Shown: positions 857-22,517 of the stretch, one piece after another
Layout: each line of letters begins with the position of its first letter
Numbering within the stretch: the first letter of the stretch is position 1
NCBI GenBank assembly: GCA_913047395.1
Contig: CAJWUF010000011.1
Coordinates: 1-32,821, forward strand
DNA: 32,821 nt
Direction of reading: 5' to 3'
DNA from: an uncultured cyanobacterium
GTDB taxonomy: Bacteria; Cyanobacteriota; Cyanobacteriia; PCC-6307; Cyanobiaceae
The notes under the pieces: model-generated
Told to the model about the DNA's origin: nothing
The model's database searches: none
The model's input: the letters and a program-made list of their open reading frames with translations, nothing else
Position numbers and translations under genes: made by a program

Positions 857-3800
857 TTAAACGCTAAAATACTTTGCTTGGCTATGTAGAGCAATAATAG
901 CTGTAGTACTTTGCTCGGGTTCTAATTGATCATTTGCATCCATTTTTAGTTCTATCCGTTCAGCACCTAACCATTGGAGTTGTTGTCTTGAGTCACCTAA
1001 ATTTGGACATGCTGGATAGCCAAAGGAAAAGCGACAACCTCTGTACCTCTGAGCAAGAATTTCGTTTATTGCCTGTGGTTCAAGATTCCCAAAACCACAT
1101 TCACAACGAATACGAGCATGCGACCACTCAGCTAATGCTTCGGCCAACTGTACAGTTAATCCATGGAAAAATAGATAATCAGTATAAACATCTGCATCAA
1201 ATAATGTCTGGGCGAAAATGGTGCATTCCTTACCCATTGTTACAGCTTGCATAGGTAGGATATCAGTTGGTTTTCCATCTTTAAGGTCATTATAAAAATC
1301 AGAAATGCAGTAGTGCCTGCCTCCACGTTGTCTAGGTAGATTAAAACTGCCAATTGGATTTATACCCTCATTGTCAAATACGATTAACGAGTTTCCTTCT
1401 CTTCCGCAAGGAAAATATCCGTATGCAACCGCGGGCTGCAAGAGGTCTTCTTCCTTTATTCGATTAATCCAGCTAAGTAGGACTGGTACTGCGTTGTCTT
1501 CTAGGTATTTCTCATATTCACCACGACTCTGGTTATTCGACTTTCGCATTTGCCACTGACCTTTAAAAAGAGCATTACGGTCTAAATATTTGATAATCTC
1601 ATCGATAGGTATCTGATCAGCTTTTAGGACTTTTGAGCCGATAAAGGGTGCGGTAATTGGATCTTCTGTAGACACCTCAATTGATCTATCGGTTGATATA
1701 TTTACTGATTTAGAGTTATTAGTCTTTGGTTCACTTACGTTATCATTTTTATTATTAGTTGCCTCTTGATTTGATTGCTCACCAAGTATCAAACCATCTG
1801 GTGTTCCGTCAAGAAATCCTTTGATGTCATCCCAGCGGTTATTCTTGCAAGCAGCCACATAGGAGTCCATGAAGCGGAGATCCGTGAAAGCATCCTTCCC
1901 GTAGATAACCTTTCCATTATATGAACTGCTGCAATCATTATTGACAAATCTAGGAGTAAGAGCAGCGCCTCCTAGTATTACGGGGACGGTAATGCCAGCA
2001 TCGTTAAATTCTTTTAGATTACTCTTCATAAATGCTGTTGATTTTACGAGAAGCCCACTCATGGCGATGCAATCGGCATTGTAAGTTTTTTGTGCTTGGA
2101 TAATCGCCGCGCTATCTTGCTTAATTCCTAAATTAATAACTTCATATCCATTATTTGTTAAGATTATATCAACAAGATTTTTGCCTATATCATGTACATC
2201 TCCTTTTACTGTTGCTATAAGGAATTTAGCCTTTGAGTTATTGCCGCCACTAGACTTATCCATATGTGGCTCAAGATATGCAACAGCAGACTTCATAGTT
2301 TGGGCTGACTGGAGAACGAATGGAAGTTGCATTTGTCCAGATCCAAATAGTTCGCCAACTACCTTCATTCCTTCAAGAAGGAATGTGTTTACGATCTGCA
2401 GGGGCTGATAAGTGTGCAGCGCTTCATCAAGAGCTTGATCAAGACCTACTCTTTCACCATCGATAATAAATTGCTTAAGACGTTCCTCTATAGGTAAATC
2501 GGCCAATGAAGGACCGGAAGCCCTTGCCTCTTTAGTGCTAACTCCTTCAAAAAGTTTAGTCAACTCTGTCAAAGGGTCATATGTGCATAAGTCTTTTTCA
2601 AAGCCTCTTAAATCGTGTATTAGATCTCGACATATACGTTGGTGTTGTTCACTTATTTTGCTAAGCGGTAGAATCTTAGATGGTGATATTATCGCTGCAT
2701 CCATACCGGCTTCGCAGCAGTCATTTAGGAATACCGAATTCAGTGTAATCCGTGCTGCAGGAGAGAGTCCAAAACTTATATTAGATACACCCAGTACTAC
2801 ATGTGCACCATGAAGTTCATTTCTGATCAGCCGAATAGCCTCTATAGTTTCTGATGCATTTTTACGGTCTTCCTCAATACCAGTGGATATAGGAAGTGCT
2901 AATGGATCATAAAATATTTCATGCGCAGGAATACCAAATTTAATAGCTGCCTGGTAAGCACGTTTGGCAATCTCGAGTTTCTTTTTTGCAGTTCTAGCCA
3001 TACCTTGTTCATCTATGGTACCAATGACTATTCCAGCTCCATACTCCTTAGCGATTGTTAATACCTGATAGAACCGTTCCTCACCATCCTCATAATTTGT
3101 TGAATTCAGGATGCATTTGCCACCAGCAATCTTTAGGCCAGCCTCCATCTTCTCCCATTCTGTTGAATCAAGCATCAAGGGTAGATTGATGTTGGTTACA
3201 AGTCTGCTCACCATCTCATGCATGTCATTTATCCCATCACGTCCTACATAATCGACATTGACATCAAGAACATGTGCATTCTCTTTTAGTTGTCCACGAG
3301 CTACAGCAACTAGGCCATCCCAATCTTCGCTATTTAGTAGGTCCCTTACTTTCTTAGAGCCGCTTGCATTAAGACGTTCTCCAATGATTAAGAATGAATT
3401 ATCCTGGTGATATGGTGTAACTCCATAAAGAGAGGCTGCTGAGGGTTCATATCCAAATAATGTTCTCTTTTCTACATCCTTACCACGACGGCAAGGGCGT
3501 TCTGCTGCTCGCATTTCTCTAGCAAGTTCTGCCAATGCCGAAATATGTGCAGGAGTCGTTCCACAACATCCTCCAATGACCTGAACACCTAGATCCTCAA
3601 CGAAGTGCATAAGTTGCATCTTTAATTCCAAAGGCTGCAATCTGTAATGAGCAACACCACCTACATTTTCTGGCAATCCAGCATTCGGTATGCAACTAAT
3701 ATGGAATGGACAATGATTAGATAAATACTGAATATGTTCCTTCATCTGTTCTGGTCCTGTTGCGCAGTTCAGACCGAGAATGTCTATCGGGAAAGGTTCT

Positions 3801-4477
3801 AGTATTGAAACAACAGCAGAAATGTCAGAACCAACAAGCATGGTGCCTGTAGTCTCCATTGTTACAGAAACCATTAAAGGACGACGTTCACCTAATTTTA
3901 AAAATGCAGATTCAACACCTTGTAAAGCAGCCTTTATCTGCAAAACGTCCTGACATGTTTCAATAATAAATAGGTCAACATCTCCAGCTAATAATCCCTC
4001 TGCTTGTTCTTGATATGAATCACGCATTGCATCAAAATCAATATGACCAAGAGTTGGCAATTTTGTAGTTGGGCCCATTGACCCTGCTACAAATCTTGGC
4101 TGCTCAGGTGTGCTGAACTTATCAGCAATTTCCTTTGCCAACTGTGCTGATTTCTTATTTATTTCATATGCGAATTCTTCTAATTCATATTCTGCAAGTA
4201 CGATTGACGCTGCTCCGAAGGAATTTGTCTCGATAACGTCGCACCCTGCTTCAAGGAAAAGACGATGTACCTCTTGTACCGCATCTGGTCTTGTTAGGAC
4301 TAGATGTTCGTTGCACCCCTCTAGTGCTACGCCGCCAAAATCATCTGCAGTAAGTTCTAGGCCCTGCAGAGATGTGCCGGTAGCTCCATCGAAAACTAAT
4401 ACCGGTCGCTCTGGGGAGTAGAGGCGAGCAAGAAAAGCCGAATCAGTTTTCTTGACTTCCAGGCTCTCTGATGCCAT
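857..4477 (-). CDS. metH: Cobalamin-dependent methionine synthase
   Basis: Transfers a methyl group from methyltetrahydrofolate through cobalamin to homocysteine, giving methionine in the cytoplasm. All four MetH modules are visible, numbered from the ATG at 4477 (1206 aa). The homocysteine domain (about 15-330) has zinc cysteines in NCATGP (C238) and GGCCGTTP (C304, C305). The pterin-binding domain (about 355-620) begins at [11 protein letters not shown]. The B12 cap and Rossmann domains (about 660-890) carry DVHDIG (760-765), whose His is the lower cobalt ligand, plus SGLLVKST and GGAALTPR. The activation domain (about 935-1206) has [10 protein letters not shown], the family's S-adenosylmethionine site. 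A GTG 12 bases upstream (4489) is an alternative start. An Asn/Ser/Lys-rich stretch (about 900-930) links the B12 and activation domains. It lies 68 bases downstream of ilvE and probably shares its transcript. Confidence 0.97.
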
Positions 4478-4545
4478 CGAGTTGTTCACGTCTTGGCGTG
4501 ATCCTAGATAGCTACCTGCTTACAGCCATGAAGATCTCTTTAAAT

Positions 4546-5466
4546 TCATTGATTGCTCAAGGCAATGCGCGTGATCCAATGCTCATAATCCTTGTCGCGT
4601 CCTTCCGTAATCTCTATGAGACGCTCACGTAAGGCATTCATGACCGGTCGCTCCGTTGCTAAGGCGGTCGATTCAAGCTTCCTTATTGGCGTTATTTTTG
4701 CGGCCGTACCTGTAAGGAATACCTCATCAGCGATAAAAAGCTCTGTTTTGTCAACTGGTCGCTCTATCACGGGTATACCCATCGCATTGGCAAGTTCGAT
4801 AACACTTGCACGGGTGATCCCTTCCAGTATGTCTTGATCAACACCAGGTGTTATTAACTGTCCATCCCTTACAAGAAAGAGGTTCATGCCGCTAGCCTCA
4901 CTGATCTTTCCTCTGCTGTTTAGTAGCAATGCTTCGTCGAATCCACTTAATACCGCTTCTGTTTTGGCTAGCGAACTAGTGATATAGGCGCCACTAATCT
5001 TGCCTCTAAGAGGTAGAGATCTGTCCTCTTGACGTGTAAAGCTGCTAATTCGACAGCTGACTCCTTCTGGTGACAAGTAGTCGCCTAGTTCGAGTCCATA
5101 GATAAAGAAATCTGTCTCGATGTTGTGTAGACGCGGGGCTATTCCCAGATCACTTGTATAAACAAATGGTCGAAGGTAGATAGGTGTTTTTGGCCTATTT
5201 ACCTTGAGAATTGACTCCAGAGCAGCAATTATTTTCGCTTCACTTAGTTCAGTCAGCAACAAGCGAGCACTTTGACTTAGGCGCCTTGCATGTCGATCTG
5301 CTCTGAAGAGCAAAATTGAGTTGCTGTTTTGAGGATCAGGTATAGCCCGCATCCCTCCGAATGCACCCGTCCCGTAGTGCAAGGCATGAGTGGCGATCGA
5401 GACCTTGGCGTCTTCGAATGGAACGCATTTCCCCTGGAACCAGGCATAAGGCAGGAACTGATGCAT
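4546..5466 (-). CDS. ilvE: Branched-chain amino acid aminotransferase (fold-type IV PLP enzyme)
   Basis: Catalyses the last step of valine, leucine and isoleucine synthesis, moving the amino group from glutamate to the branched-chain 2-oxo acid with pyridoxal phosphate. The 306-residue length is normal for the bacterial family. Visible motifs are HALHYGTGAFGGMR near residues 27-40, the likely PLP lysine K156 in RGKISGAY, the EASGMNLF segment starting at E190, and LTGTAAKI (251-258), which contacts the cofactor phosphate. The ATG at 5466 gives the expected N-terminus. D-amino acid transaminase and aminodeoxychorismate lyase share the fold, but the overall pattern fits IlvE best. It is the first gene of a leftward ilvE-metH pair and diverges from cobN across 78 bases. 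Confidence 0.92.
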   Translation of the reverse strand: MHQFLPYAWFQGKCVPFEDAKVSIATHALHYGTGAFGGMRAIPDPQNSNSILLFRADRHARRLSQSARLLLTELSEAKIIAALESILKVNRPKTPIYLRPFVYTSDLGIAPRLHNIETDFFIYGLELGDYLSPEGVSCRISSFTRQEDRSLPLRGKISGAYITSSLAKTEAVLSGFDEALLLNSRGKISEASGMNLFLVRDGQLITPGVDQDILEGITRASVIELANAMGIPVIERPVDKTELFIADEVFLTGTAAKITPIRKLESTALATERPVMNALRERLIEITEGRDKDYEHWITRIALSNQ

Positions 5467-5544
5467 TACTGGATAGGGACCTAATCTCTAGATTTTCTCA
5501 CCACCTCGACTCAATCCAGCAATTCTTCGCCAGTAAATGAGCTA
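5467..5544. promoter_or_regulatory. Divergent promoter region between ilvE and cobN
   Basis: This 78-base gap must hold or border the start signals for both the leftward ilvE-metH pair and rightward cobN. It is too short for a cobalamin riboswitch, and none of the B12-box features were seen. No strong -10/-35 pair stands out by eye. Confidence 0.35.
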
Positions 5545-8500
5545 ATGCATCGACTAGCAAGCCTGCCAGGAGATGGTCCATTAGAGGATGTGCTGCTCGT
5601 AGAACAGCCATCAGCACCAATCCTTCTGTTGACCAGTGCAAGAACTGATATCGCAACACTTGCTTCTGTTCTGGATCTTCAAGAACAGCACGGCTGGAAA
5701 AATCGAATCCGTGCACTGCCATTAACAGCTCTCGATCATCCTGCGCAGGTTGATCACTATCTAGCCACTACGGCATCAAAAGCAAAGTTGATTGTCGTCC
5801 GTCTTCTAGGGGGACGAGGGCACTGGAGCTACGGGCTTGAACAGCTGAGCTTGTGGAAAGAGGGAGATGCTCAACGTGAGCTCCTTATTCTCGCGGGCAC
5901 TATTGATCAGGATTTAGAGCTTCATGCCCTCGGTAGTTACCCCATACCTTTGGCTGATCGACTGGCTCTGCTCATGCGAGAAGGCGGTGTTGAAAATATG
6001 TTGATGCTTCTTGATGTGTTTGACGATCTTTTTAATGACAAGCCTCTAACGCTCGATCACATCAAAGTCAAAGCCATGGCTGATCCTGCACCTTGGGATT
6101 GGCAATCAGAATCAGGGCCCAAGGTGGGAGTAGTGCTCTATCGAGCACTTTTTCAAGCTGGTGACTTAGCTTTCCCTAAAGCTATTAATCAGAAACTTCG
6201 TGATCGAGGGCTGGTTCCACGAGCTATCTGGGTCAGTAGCCTTAGGGATCCAGCGGTACAAAAGGGTGTTGCCCACCTGTTTAAGCAACAAAATGTAGAA
6301 GCTGTTCTGACGACGACCTCATTCGCCTCTGTGCAGTTTGAACAGGTAGGTCTTGGTTCGGTCCTATGGGATGAACTTGACGTACCTGTTTTGCAGGTAC
6401 TTAGCAGTGGTCGCCCGCGACAGGAGTGGATAGATAGCAGCAGAGGTCTTGATCCGCTTGATCTTTCTCTACAGGTCGTTCTACCAGAACTTGATGGACG
6501 CATTACAACTCGTCCAGGGGCCTTTCGCTCTATTCAACAGACACATGACTCTCTTTCAACAGTTGTTCAAGGAATGGAGCCCGATGATGGCGGTCTTAAC
6601 TGGACAGCAGATCATCTAAAGAACTGGATCAAGCTTCGACAAGCTCAACCATCACAACGACGCATTGCGCTTGTTTTAGCAAATTACCCTATCCGGGATG
6701 GTCGAATAGCTAACGGAGTTGGGCTCGATACTCCTGCTAGTACAGCCTCAATCTTGAAATGGTTGCAGGAAAGCGGACATGAGCTTGGTTCTGATGCAAT
6801 TCCGGCTGATGGTCAAGAGTTGATGAAATGCCTGCTCAGTTCACGTACCAATGACCCAGAGAGTCAAAATCGACCAGCGCTTTCATATCTATCGCTTTCT
6901 CAATACTTGAGCTGGTGGGATTCATTACCAGCGAATTCCGTCGAACCTATTTTGAAAAGATGGGGTTCACCGGAGCAGGCGATTGATCTGGAAGCTGATG
7001 GTTTCCCTATACATGGCATCAGCTTTAAAAATGTCGTAGTACTAATCCAACCAAGTCGTGGTTATGACAGTGATGAAATTTCAGATTTACATTCTCCCGA
7101 TCTACCTCCACCTCATCGATACCTAGCCCAATACCTATGGATTAGCCAAGTCCATAGATCTAATTTATTGGTACATATTGGCAAGCATGGCAGTGTTGAA
7201 TGGCTGCCCGGTAAGGGTGTGGGACTCAGTGATTCGTGCTATCCGAATCTTGCGCTAGGACCTTTACCTAATGTTTATCCCTTCATAGTCAATGATCCAG
7301 GAGAAGGCTCTCAGGCCAAAAGAAGAAGCCAAGCTGTGATAATCGATCACCTCACACCACCACTTGGCCGTGCTGGGCTACATGGCGATTTACTAAAGAT
7401 TGAAGTTTTGCTAGATGAATATGTTGAGGCAAATCAGTTAGGTGCTGAAAGGGTCTATATTATTGAGTCAAAATTGATTAATCTGCTAGAGAAGAATAAC
7501 TGGCCTGGTTTACCCAAGGTATTAGACGAATCAAAAGAGAGTAGGAGATTATTGCAAAAGAGTTTTGACAATGCTGAAACCTACCTCTGTGAACTCAAAG
7601 AATCTCAGATAAGAACAGGTCTGCATCACTTTGGCAAGGCACCTACCCACAAGGCCGCCCTTGAGCTATTACTTGCAATTGCCCGAGCACCATCTAATGA
7701 TCAACCTGGCTTAACACAATCAGTTGCCACCAAAATTGGTCTGGAGCTAGATCCTTGGTCCGACGAGGAGGGTGAGATAATCTCTAGCCATGACAAGAAT
7801 ATACTAATCAAGTTCGGCCTAGAACCTCCCCGTAGGATTGGAGATGCTGTTGCTTGGATTGAAGAGCAAACTCTGATTCTATTAGATATTCTTCTTGTAC
7901 AATCAAATGAACAAGATACAAATATCAACCATAAACTACTAATTGAGCCATTGAGGAATTGGCTTAATTCTTCAAATTACGATCCTCATTTAAAACTTAT
8001 CAAACAAGATCTCTGGCCTCGGCTTATGGCCTGCGCAGAGAAGGAACAATATGCTTTTATCAACGCTGTATCGGGTAGGCGCATAACTAGTGGTCCTTCT
8101 GGTGCGCCTACACGTGGCAAACCAGAAGTACTACCTACTGGCAGGAATTTTTATTCAGTTGATCTCAGAGGACTGCCAACAGAGGCCGCCTGGGACCTAG
8201 GCAAGCGAAGTGCTGAACAGTTGCTGGACTTGCACCTTCTAGAGCAAGGTGAGCATTTAACTCATTTAGCCCTCTCTGTATGGGGAACAGCAACTATGCG
8301 TAATGGTGGAGAAGATATAGCCCAGTTATTAGCGTTAATTGGAGTTCGACCAGTATGGGATGGTCCGAGTCGGAGAATGGTCGGTTTAGATGTTATTCCA
8401 ATAAGCCTTCTCGGGCGTCCAAGGGTAGATGTAATCCTGCGAATATCAGGACTCTTTAGAGATGCCTTCCCGCAGCTTATTGGCTGGGTGAATAAAGCAC

Positions 8501-9306
8501 AAATACTCGTATCTAATTTAAAGGAAGACGCTAAATGGAACCCCCTAGCTGAAATTACACGTCAGAAAGGTCCTCAGGGCCGTGTATATGGATCAGCCCC
8601 CGGAGCATATGGAGCAGGTCTTCAAGCATTGATTGACTCAGGATCCTGGAATAATCGAGCAGATCTTGGGGAGTCTTATCTTGCTTGGAGCCAATGGCGA
8701 TACAGCGGTGAGTCGGATCCAACTTTAGATCGAGATGGACTCGAACGAGGTCTGCAAAATGTTCAGGTAGTTCTTCACAACCAAGACAACCGAGAGCATG
8801 ATCTATTGGACTCAGATGACTATTACCAGTTTCATGGGGGACTAGCAGCTGCTGTGGAATTGACCTCTGGGCAGCGACCTGATCTTTGGTTTGGTGATCA
8901 TTCACGCAGGGATCGACCGAGAATGCGACCACTTGAACAAGAAATAGACAAAGTTGTACGAAGCCGCTTGTTAAATCCTCGTTGGATCGATGGAATGAAG
9001 CAGCACGGCTACAAGGGAGCTTTTGAAATGGGTGCAAGCCTTGATTACCTGTTCGCCTATGACGCAGCTACAGATCTGGTTCCCGATTGGTGTTACAAAG
9101 CTCTGTATGAGCATTGGCTAGAAAATAAAGCAGTTCAAGATTTTCTTAGTGATAAAAATCCTTGGGTTCTTAGAGACATGGCCGAACGTTTGCTTGAGGC
9201 TGCAAATCGAGGCATGTGGAATTCAGCAGATCAGCGTGAATTGATCTCACTTAGAGAAATTGTGAATACAAGTGAAGCAAAGATCGAAACAAATCAACTT
9301 AACTGA
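5545..9306 (+). CDS. cobN: Aerobic cobaltochelatase large subunit CobN
   Basis: Large subunit of the chelatase that inserts cobalt into the corrin ring during B12 or pseudo-B12 synthesis, working with AAA+ chelatase subunits that cyanobacteria usually share with magnesium chelatase. The 1253-residue length fits CobN. The family core is clear: HIGKHGSVEWLPGK (544-557), LGPLPNVYPF, DPGEGSQAKRR (584-594), DHLTPPLGRAGLHGD, then toward the C-terminus RVDVILRISGLFRDAFP and RVYGSAPGAYGAGL. These are closer to CobN than to the related chlorophyll subunit ChlH, which is longer and has a different C-terminal half. The ATG start matches the N-terminus I remember for picocyanobacterial CobN. Nearby metH is a consumer of the product, though the two are on opposite strands. 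It converges with the PHP gene across about 158 AT-rich bases. Confidence 0.93.
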   Translation: MHRLASLPGDGPLEDVLLVEQPSAPILLLTSARTDIATLASVLDLQEQHGWKNRIRALPLTALDHPAQVDHYLATTASKAKLIVVRLLGGRGHWSYGLEQLSLWKEGDAQRELLILAGTIDQDLELHALGSYPIPLADRLALLMREGGVENMLMLLDVFDDLFNDKPLTLDHIKVKAMADPAPWDWQSESGPKVGVVLYRALFQAGDLAFPKAINQKLRDRGLVPRAIWVSSLRDPAVQKGVAHLFKQQNVEAVLTTTSFASVQFEQVGLGSVLWDELDVPVLQVLSSGRPRQEWIDSSRGLDPLDLSLQVVLPELDGRITTRPGAFRSIQQTHDSLSTVVQGMEPDDGGLNWTADHLKNWIKLRQAQPSQRRIALVLANYPIRDGRIANGVGLDTPASTASILKWLQESGHELGSDAIPADGQELMKCLLSSRTNDPESQNRPALSYLSLSQYLSWWDSLPANSVEPILKRWGSPEQAIDLEADGFPIHGISFKNVVVLIQPSRGYDSDEISDLHSPDLPPPHRYLAQYLWISQVHRSNLLVHIGKHGSVEWLPGKGVGLSDSCYPNLALGPLPNVYPFIVNDPGEGSQAKRRSQAVIIDHLTPPLGRAGLHGDLLKIEVLLDEYVEANQLGAERVYIIESKLINLLEKNNWPGLPKVLDESKESRRLLQKSFDNAETYLCELKESQIRTGLHHFGKAPTHKAALELLLAIARAPSNDQPGLTQSVATKIGLELDPWSDEEGEIISSHDKNILIKFGLEPPRRIGDAVAWIEEQTLILLDILLVQSNEQDTNINHKLLIEPLRNWLNSSNYDPHLKLIKQDLWPRLMACAEKEQYAFINAVSGRRITSGPSGAPTRGKPEVLPTGRNFYSVDLRGLPTEAAWDLGKRSAEQLLDLHLLEQGEHLTHLALSVWGTATMRNGGEDIAQLLALIGVRPVWDGPSRRMVGLDVIPISLLGRPRVDVILRISGLFRDAFPQLIGWVNKAQILVSNLKEDAKWNPLAEITRQKGPQGRVYGSAPGAYGAGLQALIDSGSWNNRADLGESYLAWSQWRYSGESDPTLDRDGLERGLQNVQVVLHNQDNREHDLLDSDDYYQFHGGLAAAVELTSGQRPDLWFGDHSRRDRPRMRPLEQEIDKVVRSRLLNPRWIDGMKQHGYKGAFEMGASLDYLFAYDAATDLVPDWCYKALYEHWLENKAVQDFLSDKNPWVLRDMAERLLEAANRGMWNSADQRELISLREIVNTSEAKIETNQLN

Positions 9307-9464
9307 TGATTTTATAATTAATTTAAGCAGTTTCGGTTATGTGATTTAATCTCCTTATGTTGATTTAATAACCAATATACAAATTTATATAGATTTAAGT
9401 CATTTTGGTAATTTGAAGTATAAACCAATCAAAAATGAAAATAAACGAAGTCACAATCATCAGG

Positions 9465-10118
9465 TTAACGACCGCTAAGATCAAACCCATGCGTATCAGT
9501 ACCACAGGTGCTTAACAGACCAAGATCCTTCAACTGTTGATCAATGGCCTCACAAATAAGTGGCGTCGGACGCCACTTAGAGAGACAATCGTAGTCATAC
9601 CAGGCTTCCCCACCATCAAAACCAATATCAGAGGCAGTGCTAATTAGCTCAGTATGACCAATACGATACCGAGCCGGATGAGCGAGTACAGCTAAACCAC
9701 TAGCTTGATGAATTGCCTTAAGAACCACTTCAGCTCGTAGAGATTGGCCAATGGCTGAATCATTTTGGCTATAAGGGTGAAGAGATTGGTGACCAATCTC
9801 AAAACCAAGTGCCAGTACATGGACAAGACAACCTTTAAGCAGGCAACTTATCTCTATGCCACTCCAAAGGGTTGGGACTTGTAAACCTTTGTTTAATTGA
9901 ATATCAAGCCAATCCTTCATCAACTGGTATGCCTGAGTGTTGTGGTGATCCGTTACGGCTAGGTGCTTTATGCCTCTTTCCGTAGCCTGAGATATTAATT
10001 GCAGGGGCTCTAGGCTCCCATCACTGAATGTGGTGTGGCAGTGAAAATTAAGAATATTTGGACAACTTTCAGGGCCAGTAGCCAAGAGGATTCGACTGAG
10101 TGGATGTTTATCATTCAT
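9465..10118 (-). CDS. PHP-domain metal-dependent phosphoesterase
   Basis: A stand-alone PHP domain, related to the bacterial TrpH/YciV (RNase AM) proteins that remove phosphate or 5' nucleotides in a metal-dependent way. From the ATG at 10118 the protein has 217 residues. Metal-ligand motifs are visible in order: HCH (26-28) with TFSDGS, TDHHNT (57-61), the Glu of SGIEIS (89), LAHPARYR (147) and GTDTHG near the end (D208, H210). The true substrate (3',5'-pAp, short RNA or another phosphoester) cannot be read from sequence. A longer frame to 10172 would overlap hemJ by 62 bases. The ATG at 10118 overlaps the hemJ stop by 8 bases (ATGAATGA), a typical coupling arrangement, so I chose it. Confidence 0.82.
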   Translation of the reverse strand: MNDKHPLSRILLATGPESCPNILNFHCHTTFSDGSLEPLQLISQATERGIKHLAVTDHHNTQAYQLMKDWLDIQLNKGLQVPTLWSGIEISCLLKGCLVHVLALGFEIGHQSLHPYSQNDSAIGQSLRAEVVLKAIHQASGLAVLAHPARYRIGHTELISTASDIGFDGGEAWYDYDCLSKWRPTPLICEAIDQQLKDLGLLSTCGTDTHGFDLSGR

Positions 10119-10698
10119 CACTACTTGAATTTTTTTCAGGTGATTGCTGCTGCAATCTTCTCCAACGTGCATAAAATTGAATTGATGCGGCCATAAACAA
10201 CACCAGACCTACCATCAACCAAGTTGCAGCTCCCGTCGGGAACTGGTTTTTGAAGACAACCAGCATCACCACAATTACTAATATCAATGTAGGTAGTTCA
10301 TTTAGAGCTCGAAGCTGACGGCCACTCCAGCGGCATTCCCCACGAGCTAACTGACCCATTAAGCGATAGCAAAAGGCGTGATAGACAAGAAGTCCGGCAA
10401 CAAAAACAAGTTTTGCCTGCATCCAACTTTGATATAGCCAACTTGGCTGGGTGATCAATAGTCCCACCGCCATAGAAACAGCAAGAACCATGCCTGGGGT
10501 AGTGATGATATTTACGAGTCGCCGCTCCATGAGCATGTACTGCTCCTCAAAGGCCTCTTTGATGGGCGGATCCAGTTCAGCAGCTTCAACGTGGTAGATA
10601 AACAGGCGCACAAGATAAAAAAGTCCAGCGAACCAAACCACCACCCCAACAATGTGGAGTGTTTTAAACCACAGGTAAGCCTCAGGAGATAAGGTCAT
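10111..10698 (-). CDS. hemJ: Protoporphyrinogen IX oxidase HemJ (UPF0093 family)
   Basis: Membrane enzyme that oxidises protoporphyrinogen IX to protoporphyrin IX, the branch-point precursor of heme and chlorophyll; HemJ is the form used by most cyanobacteria. The 195-residue protein has about five membrane helices (roughly 8-34, 61-84, 92-115, 130-150, 157-176). It keeps the family signatures KTLHIVGVVVWFAGLFYL near the N-terminus, KLVFVAGLLVYH in the middle and RALNELPTLILV with VVFK after it. The final helix and Ser/Glu-rich tail go beyond the minimal family core. The start ATG at 10698 lies 66 bases after uvrC, and the stop overlaps the PHP start by 8 bases, so the two are probably co-translated. 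Confidence 0.88.
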   Translation of the reverse strand: MTLSPEAYLWFKTLHIVGVVVWFAGLFYLVRLFIYHVEAAELDPPIKEAFEEQYMLMERRLVNIITTPGMVLAVSMAVGLLITQPSWLYQSWMQAKLVFVAGLLVYHAFCYRLMGQLARGECRWSGRQLRALNELPTLILVIVVMLVVFKNQFPTGAATWLMVGLVLFMAASIQFYARWRRLQQQSPEKNSSSDE

Positions 10699-10764
10699 TG
10701 GAGGGCTAATGGCAGCTTGTTGACCTTAGGAAAGCCCGATGAATCAAAAAGCCTTGAGTAATGC

Positions 10765-12771
10765 TCAGTCAAGCACCTCCATAGCTTTGTCTTCCTCTGG
10801 GTGGAAGTAGGTCCAAACCTGTAAGGCAAGTGCTGGACCAATGCCTGAGACCTTGCTGATTTGCTCAACCCTAGCCAACTGAATAGCCTCAACGGACTGA
10901 AAGTGCGCAAGGAGGTCACGGACTCGTTTTGGACCGAGTCCTTGTATGTCACTTAGACGTGATCGTTTCATTCGTTCCCCCCTTTGTTGGCGGTGAAAAC
11001 TGAGCGCAAATCGATGGGCTTCATCTCGGAGTCGTCTGAGTAGAGCAACACCCAACTGATCAGGTTCACTATCTAGTGGTGTTTTTTGACCTGGTACAAA
11101 AATTTCCTCACGCTGCTTAGCTAAAGAGCAAACGACAAGATCCTCATGAAGGTTCAGCTCACGGAGTGCTTCCATAACTGCTGAAAGCTGCCCCTTGCCT
11201 CCATCAATCATCACCACATCAGGCCAATCATTAAGACCATCAGTCTGTAAGGTGCTGCCACTTCTATGTCGTAGTTTCTCTATATCTGCGCCTTCATTTT
11301 TGACCCTTGCCCAACGACGGAAACGTCTACGCATAATTTCTACCATAGACATGAAGTCATCACTATGGCCAGGCTTAATACTACTACTTTTTATTTTGTA
11401 CTTTCGGTAATGCTGCTTGGCTGGTAAACCATCAATAAATACAACCTGGGAAGCAACAGCATCGCTTCCCTGTATGTGACTTATGTCGTAACCCTCTATA
11501 CGTCTCGGATGTATATTGAGGTCGAGCAGCTGGGCTAAATCCTCGGTTGCTAACATTTGCTGTTCCTGCCCATGTTTAGCGCGAGCAAGTTCAAAAGATG
11601 CGTTTCTCTCTACAAGGTCAATGAGTTCAACCTTATTTTGACGTTGAGGGAAAACAACTTTTACTCGACGGCCACGTTGCTCACAAAGCCACTCCACAAG
11701 TAAATCATGCTGAGGCAATCGATATTGAACAAGTATTTCAGGAGGTACTTCAACAGGCTCAAGTTGGCTGTAGTGCTCCTCAATTACACGTTGCAAAACA
11801 TTGCCAGGTTCTTGATCAGCAGCATCTGCAGTGAAACCAAGTCGACCTACTAGTTTACCGGCACGCATCTGGAATAATTGAACAGAAGCAAGACGTTCAT
11901 CACTTGCTAATGCAAGAACATCACGACTAACCGTTGAATCTGGAAGGCTCATTTTTTGCCCCTCATTAAGCTGTTCTAAACCTTTCAGCTGATCTCTAAG
12001 CTTAGCTGCAGATTCATAATCTAATCTTTCTGAATATCGTTGCATCTGAGTTTCCAATAAAAGTCTAAGTTCTTCATTCCTGCCCTGAAATACCATCGCT
12101 ACCTTACGTAGGATCTGATGATAGTCTTCTACACTTATCTTCTCTTGGCATACGCCAGGGCAGCGACTAATTGAATAATTGAGGCAGGTACGATCTTGAT
12201 GCAACGGACGTGGTCGTTGGCGCAAAGGGAATGAGCGTTTGACCAGTAATAAGGTCCTCCGCAGAAGGCCGACATCGACATAAGGACCATAGAAGCGATC
12301 ATTCTGACTACGGAGGCGCCGCCGTCTGGTTATAAATATCCTCGGGTAAGGCTCACTCCATGTTATGCATACATATGGATATTTCTTATCGTCCTTCAAC
12401 AGTACATTAAAGTGAGGCTGCTCGTTTTTTATAAGATTAGATTCAAGAACCAGTGCTTCGGTTTCGCTATCAGTAATGATGAATTCTATTTCATATATTT
12501 GACGCACCATTAGACGGATGCGAGGACTAAGGTCTTTACTACTACGAAAATAACTTCTTACACGACTACGTAGAGATTTTGACTTGCCAACATATAACAG
12601 TCGATCATCACTGTCGCGCATCAAGTAACACCCAGGCTCAGCAGGAATTTCTTTTAACCGCTGTTCAAGTCTTATTTGATCAGTGAGTAATGAATTGCGA
12701 TTTGATATTTCGCTCAAATTATTATTATCCCCCGTAGGACCAACCTGTAGAGGCAAGGTTAAGTGCTTCAC
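10765..12771 (-). CDS. uvrC: Excinuclease ABC subunit C
   Basis: Makes both incisions around bulky DNA lesions in nucleotide excision repair, recruited by UvrB. Domain order is complete: GIY-YIG nuclease (about 43-120) with PGCYLMRD and LLYVGKSK, a UVR segment that binds UvrB near 230-265 ([11 protein letters not shown]), the RNase H-like second nuclease with GYDISHIQG and MIDGGKGQL, and tandem helix-hairpin-helix motifs at the end ([18 protein letters not shown]). The length of 668 is normal. The start is uncertain: a GTG at 12771 makes a 47-base overlap with the flavin reductase, whereas a TTG at 12717 would remove the overlap and give 650 residues. It belongs to a leftward block with hemJ and the PHP gene. 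Confidence 0.95.
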
Positions 12772-13207
12772 TATCTTGATTGAGATGGGCAGATTTCACC
12801 TCTCCAACAAAAACAGTGTGATCACCATGTACTACCTGACCCACAAGTTCACATTCAACTCCCCCAATAGAGTCTTCAAGCAAAGGTAGACCAAATTCGC
12901 CAAACCGAAATGGGGCAGACTCGAACCGACCTCCCATGGCTGACTGGGGCTTGAAGAACACCGCAGCAAGATCTTTCTGATCAGCACGCAGCATGTTTAG
13001 CGAAAAAAGTCTTGTTCTCTTGATAATTCCATGACTAGATCCCTCTGATCTAACAGCCATAACAACTAGGGGAGGCTCAAACGACCCTTGAGTAACCCAA
13101 CTTGCTGTAAAACCGTTTATTTCATCATCTTCTCGGACTCCACAAATAAACAGACCGTGAGGAATTTTGCGCAACAAAAGCTTTTTCGCTTCTAGATCCA
13201 GTGCCAT
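12725..13207 (-). CDS. Flavin reductase-like FMN-binding protein
   Basis: Member of the flavin reductase (FMN-binding split-barrel) family, which binds FMN and uses NAD(P)H to reduce flavin or act on small substrates. Recognisable features are the N-terminal IPHGLFICG strand, [18 protein letters not shown] (the FMN-contacting segment), FSLNML, and a C-terminal HTVFVGEV strand. From the ATG at 13207 it has 160 residues; an upstream in-frame ATG at 13222 would add five. The flavin reductase-like domains at the C-terminus of cyanobacterial flavodiiron proteins belong to the same family, but here the domain stands alone. The 3' end overlaps the possible GTG start of uvrC. The start diverges from coaD by 74 bases. 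The physiological electron acceptor is unknown. Confidence 0.85.
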
Positions 13208-13281
13208 TGATAATGAATTCATCTCTACAAACTCTAGGCAGCTCTTCTCTGCATAGGATCCAAAGGTTGCTTGGTTGGATT

Positions 13282-17288: not shown

Positions 17289-18488
17289 TTAGACCACTGA
17301 AGCCACAGCGTAAATGGCCTTTTGCAATAGATCGGGAACATCCTGCATCTGCTCATCAATTAACCATGGACCTAAGCTGAAACGTAACCCAGACTGAAGC
17401 CATTCAGAATTAACCTGCATGGCCTCAAGCACCATGCTGTTCTTTGACTGTCCTGCCATACAAGCACTACCACTACTTGCAGCCAGACCCAGTTTGGCAA
17501 GTTCGCGCACAACGGCCCTTCCAGAGAGGGGTTGATTTTGCGCTGTACCGACAAGCATTGATATGTGGTGTGGCAAACGATTAGTTTGATCACCAGTGAA
17601 GTAAAGCCCTGGAATGGTCAGAAGATTTTTTTGTAATGCATCTCTCATTACTTTCACCATCGAAACCTGATTCTGTTTAGATTGATCAAAATCTGATGCC
17701 AATTTTTTCATCTGTTCGAGTGCCGTAGCCATTCCCGCAACTAATGCGACGGGTTCGGTCCCAGCGCGGAGACCTTGTTCTTGACCACCGCCACATTGCA
17801 AGGGCTGAATAGACGATAGGAATTCTGGGCGCACAAGAAGCAAACCAATGCCCTTGGGGCCTTGGAGCTTGTGAGCAGATGCACTAAGTAAGTCAATCGG
17901 CAGAGAAGCCCAATCTAAAAGACCTTGGCTAAGTACTTGTGTGGCATCGGTATGAAATGGTATGCCTCGATCCCTGCAAGCTCTACCAATAGTTTTAATG
18001 GGCTGGATTGTACCAACCTCACTTTGGCCCCAAATGACTGATACCAGACGAGTTGGGGGCGCCAGCATGCTGTCAACAGCCTCTAGCTTTATGCGACCCA
18101 AGGCATCTACAGGCCATGTGAAAACTTCCCATCCTTCACGATTGAGCATCTGAGCTACTGCAACTACAGCTGGATGTTCGACCGCTGAAATAACGAGGCG
18201 ACCAGGCTGCATTGATCTAGCAGTTCCTAATAGGGCCAGATGTATTGATTCCGTAGCACCAGAGGTAAACAACACATCAGTTGTATTTGCCATCAGACAA
18301 CTTGCGGTAGTTTGTCTACTTCTTTCAAGCAATTCAGCAGCGCAGATTCCTGGACCATGGATGCTAGATGGATTCCCCCAGGCAATTTGTTGAACCTCCA
18401 TAATGCGCTGAATAACCGCAGGCCCTGGAGGGGTAGTGGCACATGCATCTAGATAGATCTCAGGCCTGCTGGAATTAACTCTGACCAT
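17289..18488 (-). CDS. Cysteine desulfurase (NifS/IscS-like, class V aminotransferase fold)
   Basis: PLP enzyme that takes sulfur from cysteine, leaving alanine, and passes it as a persulfide to iron-sulfur or other sulfur pathways. Numbered from the ATG at 18488 (399 aa): YLDACATTPP near 12-21, VEHPAV with the cofactor-stacking His (H105), HTDATQ, the PLP lysine K207 in SASAHKLQGPKG, GGGQEQGLRAGTEP, and the active-site cysteine C343 in SSGSACMAG. Spacing around the active Cys looks like the NifS/IscS group rather than the SufS group. An upstream TTG at 18497 would add three residues. The start overlaps the end of dapF by 14 bases, so the genes are likely translationally coupled. Which sulfur acceptor it serves is not shown by its neighbours. 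Confidence 0.88.
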   Translation of the reverse strand: MVRVNSSRPEIYLDACATTPPGPAVIQRIMEVQQIAWGNPSSIHGPGICAAELLERSRQTTASCLMANTTDVLFTSGATESIHLALLGTARSMQPGRLVISAVEHPAVVAVAQMLNREGWEVFTWPVDALGRIKLEAVDSMLAPPTRLVSVIWGQSEVGTIQPIKTIGRACRDRGIPFHTDATQVLSQGLLDWASLPIDLLSASAHKLQGPKGIGLLLVRPEFLSSIQPLQCGGGQEQGLRAGTEPVALVAGMATALEQMKKLASDFDQSKQNQVSMVKVMRDALQKNLLTIPGLYFTGDQTNRLPHHISMLVGTAQNQPLSGRAVVRELAKLGLAASSGSACMAGQSKNSMVLEAMQVNSEWLQSGLRFSLGPWLIDEQMQDVPDLLQKAIYAVASVV

Positions 18489-19584
18489 CCTTTTCAAACT
18501 GGGTTTGAGTGCTTTGTGCCAATGAATCGTTAGTTAGCTTGGCAAAGCTATTAACAGATGAACTGATAAAAGATTGTTCTTTTCTATTAAAAACCTCGAC
18601 ATTAGTGCCCCTATCTGACTGTTGAGATGCCTTGCAAATTATTGGTGTATCAATATTAATCATGGGTTGTTGCACATCAACAACTTTTGACTGCTTTTCG
18701 TCACTTACATCCTCTGAAAAGCCTGGCATCAAGGCAGGTGTCATCACACCGTCAAATACCGCTTGAGCTGGGCCGATCATAAAAACAGATCCACTACGTC
18801 CTGGCCAACTGATATTTAATGGACCTCCTGGCAGGCGAACTTCAGCTTGTTCACCAGAAAGACCAAGTAAGCATGCTGCTACAAGCGTTGCACAAGCACC
18901 AGTGCCACATGCCAATGTAGGCCCTGCGCCACGCTCCCAAACACGAATCTCAAGTTGATCAGGTCCATTTACTTTCAAGAAATGGACGTTTGTTTTGGCA
19001 GGAAAAGCTGGGTTTTGCTCAAGTGAATGTCCCCAATTCTCAAAAGGGATTGAATTGAGATCATTAACAGGTACAACCACATGTGGGTTACCCATACCGA
19101 CGGCCGCAACCTTCAATGTTGTGCCATCCATGGAGAACTCGCCTTGTGGCAAGCCAGCAGGGCCGCAGGGCAATGTGGTTGGTATTGATTGTGGATCTAA
19201 ATACGGAGAACCCATATCAACACGTATTTGACCATCGTTGAGAAGAGCAGGCTGGATGATTCCAGCCAATGTTTCCACCCTCGAGTAGTCACAGGTGGTT
19301 TTGCCGTCAACATCGGCTACAAAACGAGCTAAACAACGTATGCCGTTCCCGCACATCTCAGCTTCGCTACCGTCGGCATTAAAAATTTTCATGCTTAGAT
19401 CAGCCTCAGATTGAGGTGGTAGGGCGAGAATTAGACCATCCGCGCCAACCCCAAAACGACGATTGCAAATCAGACGTACCCAGGCTGGATCAGGAAACCG
19501 CACACGTTCAGGCAACTGTCCTTGTCGACCATCGATTAAAAGGAAGTCGTTTCCAAGTCCCTGATATTTGCTGAACTGCAACAT
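18475..19584 (-). CDS. dapF: Diaminopimelate epimerase with an unusual C-terminal extension
   Basis: Converts LL- to meso-diaminopimelate, the direct precursor of lysine and of the peptidoglycan cross-linking residue. It is a PLP-independent two-cysteine epimerase. From the ATG at 19584 (369 aa) both catalytic cysteines are in place: C78 in AEMCGNGIR and C226 in LACGTGACATLVAA. KYQGLGNDF lies at the N-terminus and GMGNPHVV in the middle. The family core ends near residue 290, after VFMIGPAQAVFDG. The remaining 80 residues are polar, Ser/Gln/Asn-rich and lack any domain I recognise; most family members have only about 275-290 residues. A GTG at 19587 is an alternative start. Its end overlaps the cysteine desulfurase start. 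Divergent hfq begins only 26 bases upstream. Confidence 0.94.
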   Translation of the reverse strand: MLQFSKYQGLGNDFLLIDGRQGQLPERVRFPDPAWVRLICNRRFGVGADGLILALPPQSEADLSMKIFNADGSEAEMCGNGIRCLARFVADVDGKTTCDYSRVETLAGIIQPALLNDGQIRVDMGSPYLDPQSIPTTLPCGPAGLPQGEFSMDGTTLKVAAVGMGNPHVVVPVNDLNSIPFENWGHSLEQNPAFPAKTNVHFLKVNGPDQLEIRVWERGAGPTLACGTGACATLVAACLLGLSGEQAEVRLPGGPLNISWPGRSGSVFMIGPAQAVFDGVMTPALMPGFSEDVSDEKQSKVVDVQQPMINIDTPIICKASQQSDRGTNVEVFNRKEQSFISSSVNSFAKLTNDSLAQSTQTQFEKDGQS

Positions 19585-19610
19585 CACTTACGCGTAGCTA
19601 ACCCAATCCT

Positions 19611-19832
19611 ATGGAAAATCATCCCCTTAACCCAAGTCTCCCTGGCGTTCGACTCATTCAAGGGTGGGTAAGGGACGAGATACCGCTAAGTATTGAGCTG
19701 CCTAATGGCCTGCGCCTGGAAGGGCGTCTGCTCTGGCAAGATCCCGAATTCCTCGCTCTAGAGCGCCCAGATTCACCTCAACCAGTTTTAATTAATCGTC
19801 GAGCTGTTCTGCTAATCCGACCACTTGGCTGA
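19611..19832 (+). CDS. hfq: Hfq-like RNA-binding protein, cyanobacterial type
   Basis: A 73-residue Sm-like protein. Cyanobacterial Hfq differs from the enterobacterial form by a shorter sequence and weak Sm2 motif, and from memory its gene commonly neighbours dapF, as here. The pattern LPGVRLIQGWVRDEIPLSIEL, GLRLEGRLLWQDPEFLAL and a closing VLINRRAVLLIRP fits an N-terminal helix and five beta strands. In characterised cyanobacteria this Hfq binds little RNA directly and acts with pilus machinery; whether that holds here is unknown. The ATG at 19611 is 26 bases from the divergent dapF start. leuS follows after 57 bases in the same direction. Assignment rests on context plus fold-like pattern, so it is moderately sure. 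Confidence 0.72.
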   Translation: MENHPLNPSLPGVRLIQGWVRDEIPLSIELPNGLRLEGRLLWQDPEFLALERPDSPQPVLINRRAVLLIRPLG

Positions 19833-19889
19833 AACATCTACCCTTTACTCCCCAGCTGTGGCACGATCGCAAGCTGGTGAAACCTCTTC

Positions 19890-22517
19890 GTGACAGAGTC
19901 TTCCCCCCCAACTTCAACAACAAGCCATAGCTCAGCTCGCTACGAACCTATTGAGCTGGAAACGCGATGGCAAAAGGAATGGTTACGCCAAGGACTTGAT
20001 CAAACTCCTGAAATTGGTGCGAACCAAAAATGCTTTTACGCGTTGTCGATGTTCCCGTATCCCTCCGGGAGTTTGCACATGGGGCATGTACGCAACTACG
20101 TAATCACAGATGTGATTGCCCGTGTACAGCGCATGCGAGGTGATGCTGTCCTTCACCCGATGGGATGGGATGCCTTCGGGTTGCCAGCAGAGAATGCCGC
20201 AATAGCAAGAAATGTGGATCCAGGAGACTGGACTGATCAAAATATTGCCCAAATGAGGGCACAGCTAGATCGATTAGGTCTATCAATTGACTGGAAAAGG
20301 CAACAGGCAACATGTAGCAGCGACTATTACCACTGGACACAATGGTTGTTCCTGGAGTTATTTGATGCTGGATTGGCTTATCAAAAAGAGGCAACTGTTA
20401 ATTGGGATCCTGTTGACCAAACAGTACTAGCGAACGAACAAGTTGATGGTGATGGTCGATCCTGGCGTTCAGGAGCACTTGTTGAACAACGACTGCTCAG
20501 GCAATGGTTCCTGAAGATAACTAATTATGCAGACGCATTAGTCGATGATCTAGATCAATTAACTGGTTGGCCTGAAAGGGTTCGCACGATGCAAGCCAAC
20601 TGGATTGGACGCTCACAAGGTGCAGAAATAAACTTCAAGGTAGATGGTCAGACAGATGAAATAGTCACTGTATTCACGACACGTCCTGACACTCTTTTTG
20701 GTGCAAGTTATCTGGTCCTAGCACCAGAGCATCCTTTAGTAGATGTTCTTACAAGTTCCGAGCAAGAAATAGCTGTAACGGCATTCAGGGATCTTGTCAG
20801 CCAACTAAGCGTCAAAGAGCGCACAGCTGATGATCAACCTAAACGTGGCGTACCTATCGGTTCATTTGTTAGCAACCCTGCCAATGGTGAGTTGATTCCG
20901 CTATGGATTGCTGATTATGTGCTCGCTGACTATGGCACGGGTGCAGTAATGGGCGTACCTGCACACGATGAGAGAGACTTTCTTTTCGCTCGTAGCCACG
21001 AACTTCCCATCAGAGTTGTTGTTAATTTACCGGGCACAGATGAGCATCTAAATGATGGTCAAGCCTGGTCAGGACCCGGTGTACTTATCAACTCAGCTGA
21101 ATTTGACGGTCTCACAACAGAAGAAGCAAAGCGGGCAATTACAAATCATGGTTCCACTAAAGGTTGGGCAAAAAACAAAGTTCAATATCGATTACGCGAC
21201 TGGTTGATATCTCGTCAGCGCTATTGGGGTTGCCCTATTCCGATGATTCACTGCTCTAGCTGCGGAACAATTCCTGTTCCGCAAGAGGACCTTCCTGTAA
21301 CCCTGCCTAGAGATATCAACCTTTCTGGCAAAGGTGGTTCACCTCTTGAACAACAAGACGATTGGGTTAACGTTACATGTCCATGTTGCAAGAGGAATGC
21401 CCGACGAGAGACAGATACAATGGACACATTCATGTGTTCATCTTGGTATTATCTTCGTTTTGCGGATCCTCATAACAAGGAACATCCGTTTGATAAAGGT
21501 ATTGCAGATAAATGGCTGCCAGTTAATCAATACGTAGGCGGTATCGAACATGCCATTCTTCACCTACTTTATGCGCGCTTCCTAACTAAGGCACTCTACG
21601 AACGAAAGCTTATAGGGTTTAACGAGCCCTTTGAGCGGTTGCTTACTCAAGGGATGGTTCAGGGAATAACCTATCGCAATAGTAAAACTGGACAATATAT
21701 CTCGCCAGATTTGGTCTTGGATGCAGATGACCCCAGAGATCCAGAGACAAATGAAACTCTTGAGATTTTATTTGAGAAGATGTCAAAATCTAAATATAAC
21801 GGCGTAGATCCAGCAATAGTAATTGATCGTTATGGTGCAGATACAGCGAGAATGTTCATCCTATTCAAGGCGCCCCCTGAAAAAGATTTGGAATGGGATG
21901 ATGCCGATGTAGAAGGTCAGTATAGGTTCCTACAAAGACTTATTCGTTTGGTTGATAGTTGCACAAATACCGATAGCAATATATCAATTAACACATCAAT
22001 AAAGATAGCTGATTTCACTGATCTGAGTGATAATGAATGCGAGATAAGAAGGGCAGTACATTCTGCAATAGAAGCTATTACTGAAGATCTAAGTGGCGAC
22101 TTCCAGTTAAATACAGCTATTTCAGAACTGATGAAGCTATCAAATGCATTGAGTGGTTCGTTGCATAATATTAGCGCTAATGTTGCAGCAGAAGCACTTT
22201 CTATTTTAGTACGTCTACTTGCTCCCTTTGCACCTCATCTGGCCGAGGAATTTTGGATGAAACTTGGAGGAACAGACAGTGTCCATCTCCAGCCATGGCC
22301 AATTCACGACCCTAGTGCACTTATAAAAGACACTATTGAACTCGTTATTCAAGTCAAAGGGAAAGTAAGAGGCACGATCCAGGTCCCAGCTAATGCTGAT
22401 AAAAGCACTTTGGAACAATTAACACTAGCTAGTGATATCGCTATAAAGTGGTTAGATGGAAAAGAACCAAGAAGAGTTATCGTAGTGCCAGGTAAGTTGG
22501 TGAACCTCGTACCTTAA
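19890..22517 (+). CDS. leuS: Leucyl-tRNA synthetase
   Basis: Class Ia aminoacyl-tRNA synthetase that charges tRNA-Leu. The 875-residue protein uses a GTG start at 19890 (MTESS) and has a variable N-terminus before the conserved [15 protein letters not shown]. The HIGH-type motif is HMGH (63-66, in [12 protein letters not shown]), and KMSKS is at 630-634. The editing domain in between shows [12 protein letters not shown] and [15 protein letters not shown], with the Asp that recognises misactivated amino acids. A zinc-ribbon-like Cys cluster (CSSCG and CPCC) lies in the middle. The C-terminal anticodon-binding and tRNA-contact regions are complete. It follows hfq by 57 bases and may share its transcript. 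Downstream is a long AT-rich gap before the convergent pgi. Confidence 0.97.

Follow-up and report, generated by a model that had tools for sequence, protein, structure and literature searches.

The locus of dapF and hfq raises the question of how two divergent genes are transcribed when their start codons are 26 bases apart, and whether such proximity serves regulation. It was addressed in the window, the whole 32,821-nucleotide stretch analysed here from an uncultured cyanobacterium, and in the corresponding loci of other cyanobacteria.

Layout of the dapF/hfq locus

The genes and the gap between them are located as follows:

18475..19584, minus strand: dapF, diaminopimelate epimerase, 369 amino acids with the ATG start
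19585..19610, between the divergent genes: dapF/hfq gap, 26 bases
19611..19832, plus strand: hfq, Hfq_1 family, 73 amino acids
19890..22517, plus strand: leuS, 3' of hfq on the same strand, an order shared by relatives

DapF matched the profile PF01678 in two stretches (198.5 bits for a cut-off of 34.7, E 3.6e-59), which identifies a diaminopimelate epimerase domain. The hfq product was recognized as an Hfq/Sm domain protein by PF21979 (Hfq_1; 71.5 bits for a curated cut-off of 27, E 6.5e-20). Its closest solved structures are 3hfn (E 1.2e-07) and 3hfo (E 8.4e-06), and its closest named relatives are Prochlorococcus records with 84–86 per cent identity. The source genome is incomplete (1.76 Mb in 151 contigs). 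The first ATG of dapF occupies 19584–19582 on the minus strand and that of hfq 19611–19613 on the plus strand. The longest frame of dapF begins with a GTG one codon farther upstream (19587), with which the gap would be 23 bases. In the alignment, both starts, including the N-terminus of DapF, line up with those of relatives. The distance of 26 bases given in an earlier note on this DNA was thereby confirmed, and starts lying well downstream, the outcome named there as refuting its interpretation, were not seen.

At its 3' end (18475–18497), dapF overlaps the start of the frame that follows it in the same orientation, which encodes a class-V aminotransferase (PF00266). With respect to the C-terminal tail of DapF (18475–18730), a median of 375 amino acids was obtained for 116 loci of the same taxonomic order versus 280 for 63 loci outside of it.

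The gap was compared with those in 400 kb (20 stretches) of G028, a complete genome of the window's genus, using a simple purpose-built gene caller. With 402 genes called, 4 of 69 divergent pairs were at most 26 nt apart and 10 of 69 at most 50 nt. One of these four is dapF/hfq itself, called as 17 nt with an upstream dapF start picked by the caller; the other three are predicted overlaps and maybe miscalls. A stricter caller that undercalled genes (234, hfq being missed) gave 0/38 and 3/38, respectively, and was replaced for the main figures. The pair thus belongs to the few per cent of divergent pairs with the shortest gaps, without being unique.

Distribution of the gene pair in cyanobacteria

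Hfq_1 was found in 145 of the 299 genomes of the window's order. The sample consisted of 126 of these (the 19 left out were mostly low-scoring), to which eight further loci were added and from which L034 and L009 were removed as duplicates. Since some genomes enter twice (e.g. L035/L053, L036/L084, L037/L056), some counts below are made on distinct sequences; the sequences compared are related, and the counts are thus not independent. Start calling picked a later hfq ATG in L071, L119, L237, L239 and L243.

In the order, 121 of 134 loci have a divergent dapF next to hfq, and the gap measures 22–58 nt in 108 of these 121 (exactly 26 in 14). Elsewhere in the phylum, where all 74 hfq matches were examined, the same holds for 63, with gaps of 11–382 nt, many of them of 100–380 nt. 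Among the 154 genomes of the order without hfq, 20 were examined, and in all of them dapF and leuS are divergent neighbours. As the pair is common inside and outside the order and dapF adjoins leuS where hfq is missing, comparison indicates that the pair is ancestral in cyanobacteria and that dapF comes to face leuS once hfq is lost.

The order dapF-hfq-leuS in marine cyanobacteria was published in 2005 (Axmann et al., Fig. 8; PMC1242208), with dapF-leuS distances, hfq included, of 297 and 298 nt in MIT 9313 and WH 8102, and with SS120 and MED4 devoid of hfq. The window displays the same order. The passages of that article dealing with this neighbourhood mention neither a dapF promoter, nor a hexamer over the hfq start, nor the islands described below.

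A conserved hexamer at the hfq start codon

On the dapF strand, the gap is closed by a hexamer which has one base in common with the hfq start codon. The elements considered for dapF are:

19606..19611, minus strand: TAGGAT, probable dapF -10 hexamer, its first base pairing with the A of the hfq ATG
19597..19601, minus strand: expected start of dapF transcription (about 19599), derived from where the hexamer lies and a usual spacing of 6–7 nt
19630..19635, minus strand: TTGGGT, weak -35-like sequence inside hfq codons 7–9

Among 93 distinct gap sequences, TANNNT is found at this position in 85 (TAGGAT in 71, other forms in 14), while any other offset, on whichever strand, attains 13 per cent at most. 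In the five bases preceding the hfq ATG (-5 to -1), one base is kept in 86, 87, 82, 76 and 85 of the 93 sequences, respectively. Beyond these five the gap is variable, the commonest base from -14 to -6 occurring in at most 54. Searching 12–45 nt upstream of dapF, a TA..AT hexamer was detected in 93 of 97 distinct sequences of the order (shuffles: mean 7.1, maximum 15), the exceptions being L028, L049, L050 and L070. It is present across at least 16 genus labels by hand count, at a distance from dapF of 19–39 nt. No other TANNNT occurs within 120 nt upstream of dapF in the window and four close relatives. As a control, TANNNT overlaps the start in only 8 of 308 ATG-start genes of G028, and ATCCT precedes the start in one of 308. 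The variants TAAGAT, TAAAAT, TACGAT and TACCAT all retain T1, A2, A5 and T6, which fits the motif Ta-aaT reported for S. elongatus (PMC3219970).

Outside the order, no enrichment upstream of dapF was observed, neither for TA..AT (20/59; shuffle mean 23.1) nor for TANNNT (43/59; shuffle mean 45.3). At one locus there (L231), TAGGAT precedes dapF and hfq is 122 nt distant, which is a lead only. Within the window's order, a conserved TANNNT at a plausible distance from dapF is what is expected of a sigma-70-type -10 element, and the hexamer is most likely the -10 box of dapF. A two-hexamer consensus promoter scan of 18500–20500 found nothing (shuffles: mean 2.5) and gave no convincing -35 hexamer for dapF; TTGGGT, read by eye 18 nt from the -10 hexamer, is coding sequence and gained no support.

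A sigma-70-type RNA polymerase would thus use the hexamer as -10 box and start dapF transcription near 19599, so that the 5' leader would measure some 15 nt. Its footprint would cover the first codons of both dapF and hfq. The sharing of a base between the dapF -10 box and the hfq start codon would also explain why the gap stays short.

Assignment of the hexamer to dapF

The hexamer, read on the other strand, places ATCCT directly against the hfq start codon at constant spacing, while its distance to dapF varies by 20 nt as given above. It could therefore belong to hfq as a translation or RNA element rather than to the promoter of dapF. This is unlikely, as ATCCT is pyrimidine-rich on the hfq strand and does not resemble a Shine-Dalgarno sequence. 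Moreover, in two pairs of loci (L048/L059 and L060/L090) the hfq start has moved, yet the hexamer, now without an ATG behind it, is still found close to dapF. The loci where the two genes are separated point in the same direction. Where no remnant of dapF is left beside hfq, the hexamer is missing from the hfq start in 18 out of 18 cases; where a remnant is left, it is still there in 6 out of 8, which may reflect recent events or a captured promoter. The pattern defining a remnant was chosen after viewing the sequences and misses some (L030, L045, L047). Where more than 60 nt separate dapF from hfq, the new DNA upstream of dapF contains a TANNNT in 9 of 10 loci (shuffles: mean 3.4, maximum 7); the stricter TA..AT was not enriched in these separated loci of the order (4/10; shuffles: mean 1.1, maximum 5). 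By comparison, the separated and the ATG-less loci speak for a -10 box of dapF rather than an element of hfq.

Another reading relies on the symmetry of the hexamer: a single -10 box would fire in both directions, as in the bidirectional promoters of Warman and colleagues, its opposite starts lying some 18 bp from each other. The A at -5 and the T at -1 would then serve both strands, and they are kept in 86 and 85 of 93 sequences; 18 bp is also the commonest distance at the bidirectional promoters of E. coli (PMC12825309). That spacing, however, follows from the geometry and brings no independent evidence. The bases -4 to -2 are conserved as well, as expected for the dapF direction, and the plus-strand RNA would begin around hfq codon 3, missing the hfq ATG, so that it could serve leuS only. 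We consider this reading quite improbable. From what the article reports, both systems are divergent units in which polymerase footprints necessarily overlap and a symmetric -10 box is possible; the dapF/hfq case differs in being known from sequence only and in a plus-strand start that would fall inside hfq.

The promoter of hfq

With the hexamer attributed to dapF, the gap is too short for a second full promoter, as the earlier note had stated. That note had also held that either the promoters lie inside the opposite genes or the mRNA 5' ends overlap in antisense. For dapF the former did not hold: the -10-like hexamer lies in the gap, with only its first base shared with the hfq ATG, and just the -35 zone would reach into hfq. 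For hfq, a start inside dapF is likely, as no plus-strand TANNNT occurs within 150 nt upstream of it in the window and four close relatives. Among distinct sequences, TANNNT within 60 nt upstream of hfq is even rarer than in shuffles (15/97; shuffle mean 50.5), a depletion for which the coding constraint of dapF alone may account. Since no usual box is found upstream, hfq would be served by a non-consensus box inside dapF or be reached from farther away; we regard its promoter as probably non-consensus and inside dapF, from where leuS behind it would perhaps be transcribed too. A two-hexamer scan of 19780–20050 found no promoter either. One weak candidate was noted inside dapF:

19562..19570, plus strand: TGATATTTG, extended -10-like, inside dapF codons 5–8

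It was not supported by a test of the codons. The third-position GC of dapF dips at codons 6–7 (0.32 and 0.47) and at codon 9 (0.37), versus 0.787 over codons 41–250. The codon choices at 6–7 were set against those elsewhere in the gene (Lys AAA in 65/99 adjacent genes versus 53/94 elsewhere in dapF; Tyr TAT in 57/99 versus 8/24) and persist after separation from hfq (AAA in 7 and TAT in 9 of 11 loci), and for these reasons the dip was not assigned to hfq. A general 5' codon ramp was considered as its cause and was not seen in G028, a single genome, where third-position GC is about 0.44–0.55 early and 0.488 late.

Overlap of the transcripts

Whether hfq starts inside dapF or farther away, its mRNA would overlap the 5' end of dapF, and the 5' ends of the two mRNAs are thus likely to overlap. 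Over a minimum of roughly 15 nt, the hfq mRNA would run antisense to the 5' end of dapF, and both polymerases would compete for the same DNA.

In the earlier note, such an overlap beside an Hfq-family gene was proposed as a plausible regulatory site. An antisense device, perhaps acting through Hfq, would accord with the overlap entailed by an hfq start inside dapF and with the retention of the divergent pair in most loci (121/134 and 63/74). It is nevertheless highly improbable. No Rfam family matched at gathering threshold in the whole window, and the RNA of 19560–19660 folds no better than shuffled sequences (z 0.55; 142 of 200 shuffles do so equally well or better), which leaves the proposal without a conserved RNA family or fold. 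Gaps of 100–380 nt are found in many loci outside the order, and both genes persist where islands part them. The idea that Hfq makes the site special found no support either, the RNA-chaperone role of cyanobacterial Hfq being described as not demonstrated in the part consulted of a 2021 paper (PMC8092324). The overlap is probably a by-product of genome compaction rather than a dedicated regulator.

Putative mobile islands between dapF and hfq

In seven genomes (G062, G066, G018, G076, G044, G223, G127) the body of dapF and hfq lie 1.4–13.5 kb apart on one contig. For G013 and G101, the sides come from separate contigs (L277/L278 and L279/L280), so that an insertion between them is presumptive there. 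Other loci display separations of 0.57–1.34 kb. A tyrosine-integrase gene adjoins the break, located in dapF codons 4–6, in six relatives (L268, L269, L270, L271, L277/L278, L279/L280). The hfq-side piece of all six keeps the dapF promoter, the start codon and six codons; in L268–L271 foreign sequence follows codons 1–6, and the dapF side has its own start and the common core. At the hfq-side break, the integrase gene has the orientation of dapF in the six genomes. PF00589 scored above cut-off in five of them (L277: 25.7 bits for 27.1), and the longest integrase frames start 82, 63, 502, 502, 102 and 92 nt past the captured dapF ATG, as measured by hand. A by-eye check of the open-frame lists of L272, L273 and L274 recognised no integrase frame. 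The G044 locus (L272, oriented 1818–13247) contains a 3809-codon open frame between dapF and hfq.

These arrangements tentatively suggest, at somewhat less than even chance, that the start region of dapF next to hfq serves mobile islands as a site-specific landing site. The integrase would recombine at dapF codons 4–6, with TTCAGCAAA or a close sequence as core, and dapF would obtain its new start codon and upstream sequence from the island. What is left on the hfq side, namely the promoter of dapF with its start codon and six codons, would then point into the island, in four of the six cases at an integrase gene starting 63–102 nt downstream. Thus, the island would capture a promoter which the hfq start codon holds in place, and would use it for expression of the integrase.

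Islands inserted at the 5' end of dusA are known (PMC4482086); there too, as far as described in the text consulted, an integrase gene adjoins an insertion that interrupts a conserved protein gene at its 5' end. Here the target is dapF, in relatives of marine Synechococcus, and the likeness drawn is one of layout. Among the literature matches listed for dapF with integrase, no paper on such islands was found, and the possible use of this switch region as a landing site for mobile DNA appears unreported.

Significance

Taken together, we hold it likely that the locus is an old compact divergent pair in which the dapF core promoter ends at the hfq start codon with an overlap of one base, that a non-consensus promoter inside dapF most likely drives hfq, and that the overlap of their mRNAs is probably a by-product of genome compaction. 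The gene arrangement is ordinary and already published; the promoter element is well supported by sequence conservation and apparently unreported. The probable promoter of dapF, a gene of lysine and cell-wall synthesis, is placed at base resolution, and the question of the hfq promoter is sharpened by the absence of a usual box upstream. If confirmed, the islands would add an integration site in a protein gene and a case of promoter capture in abundant cyanobacteria of the ocean.
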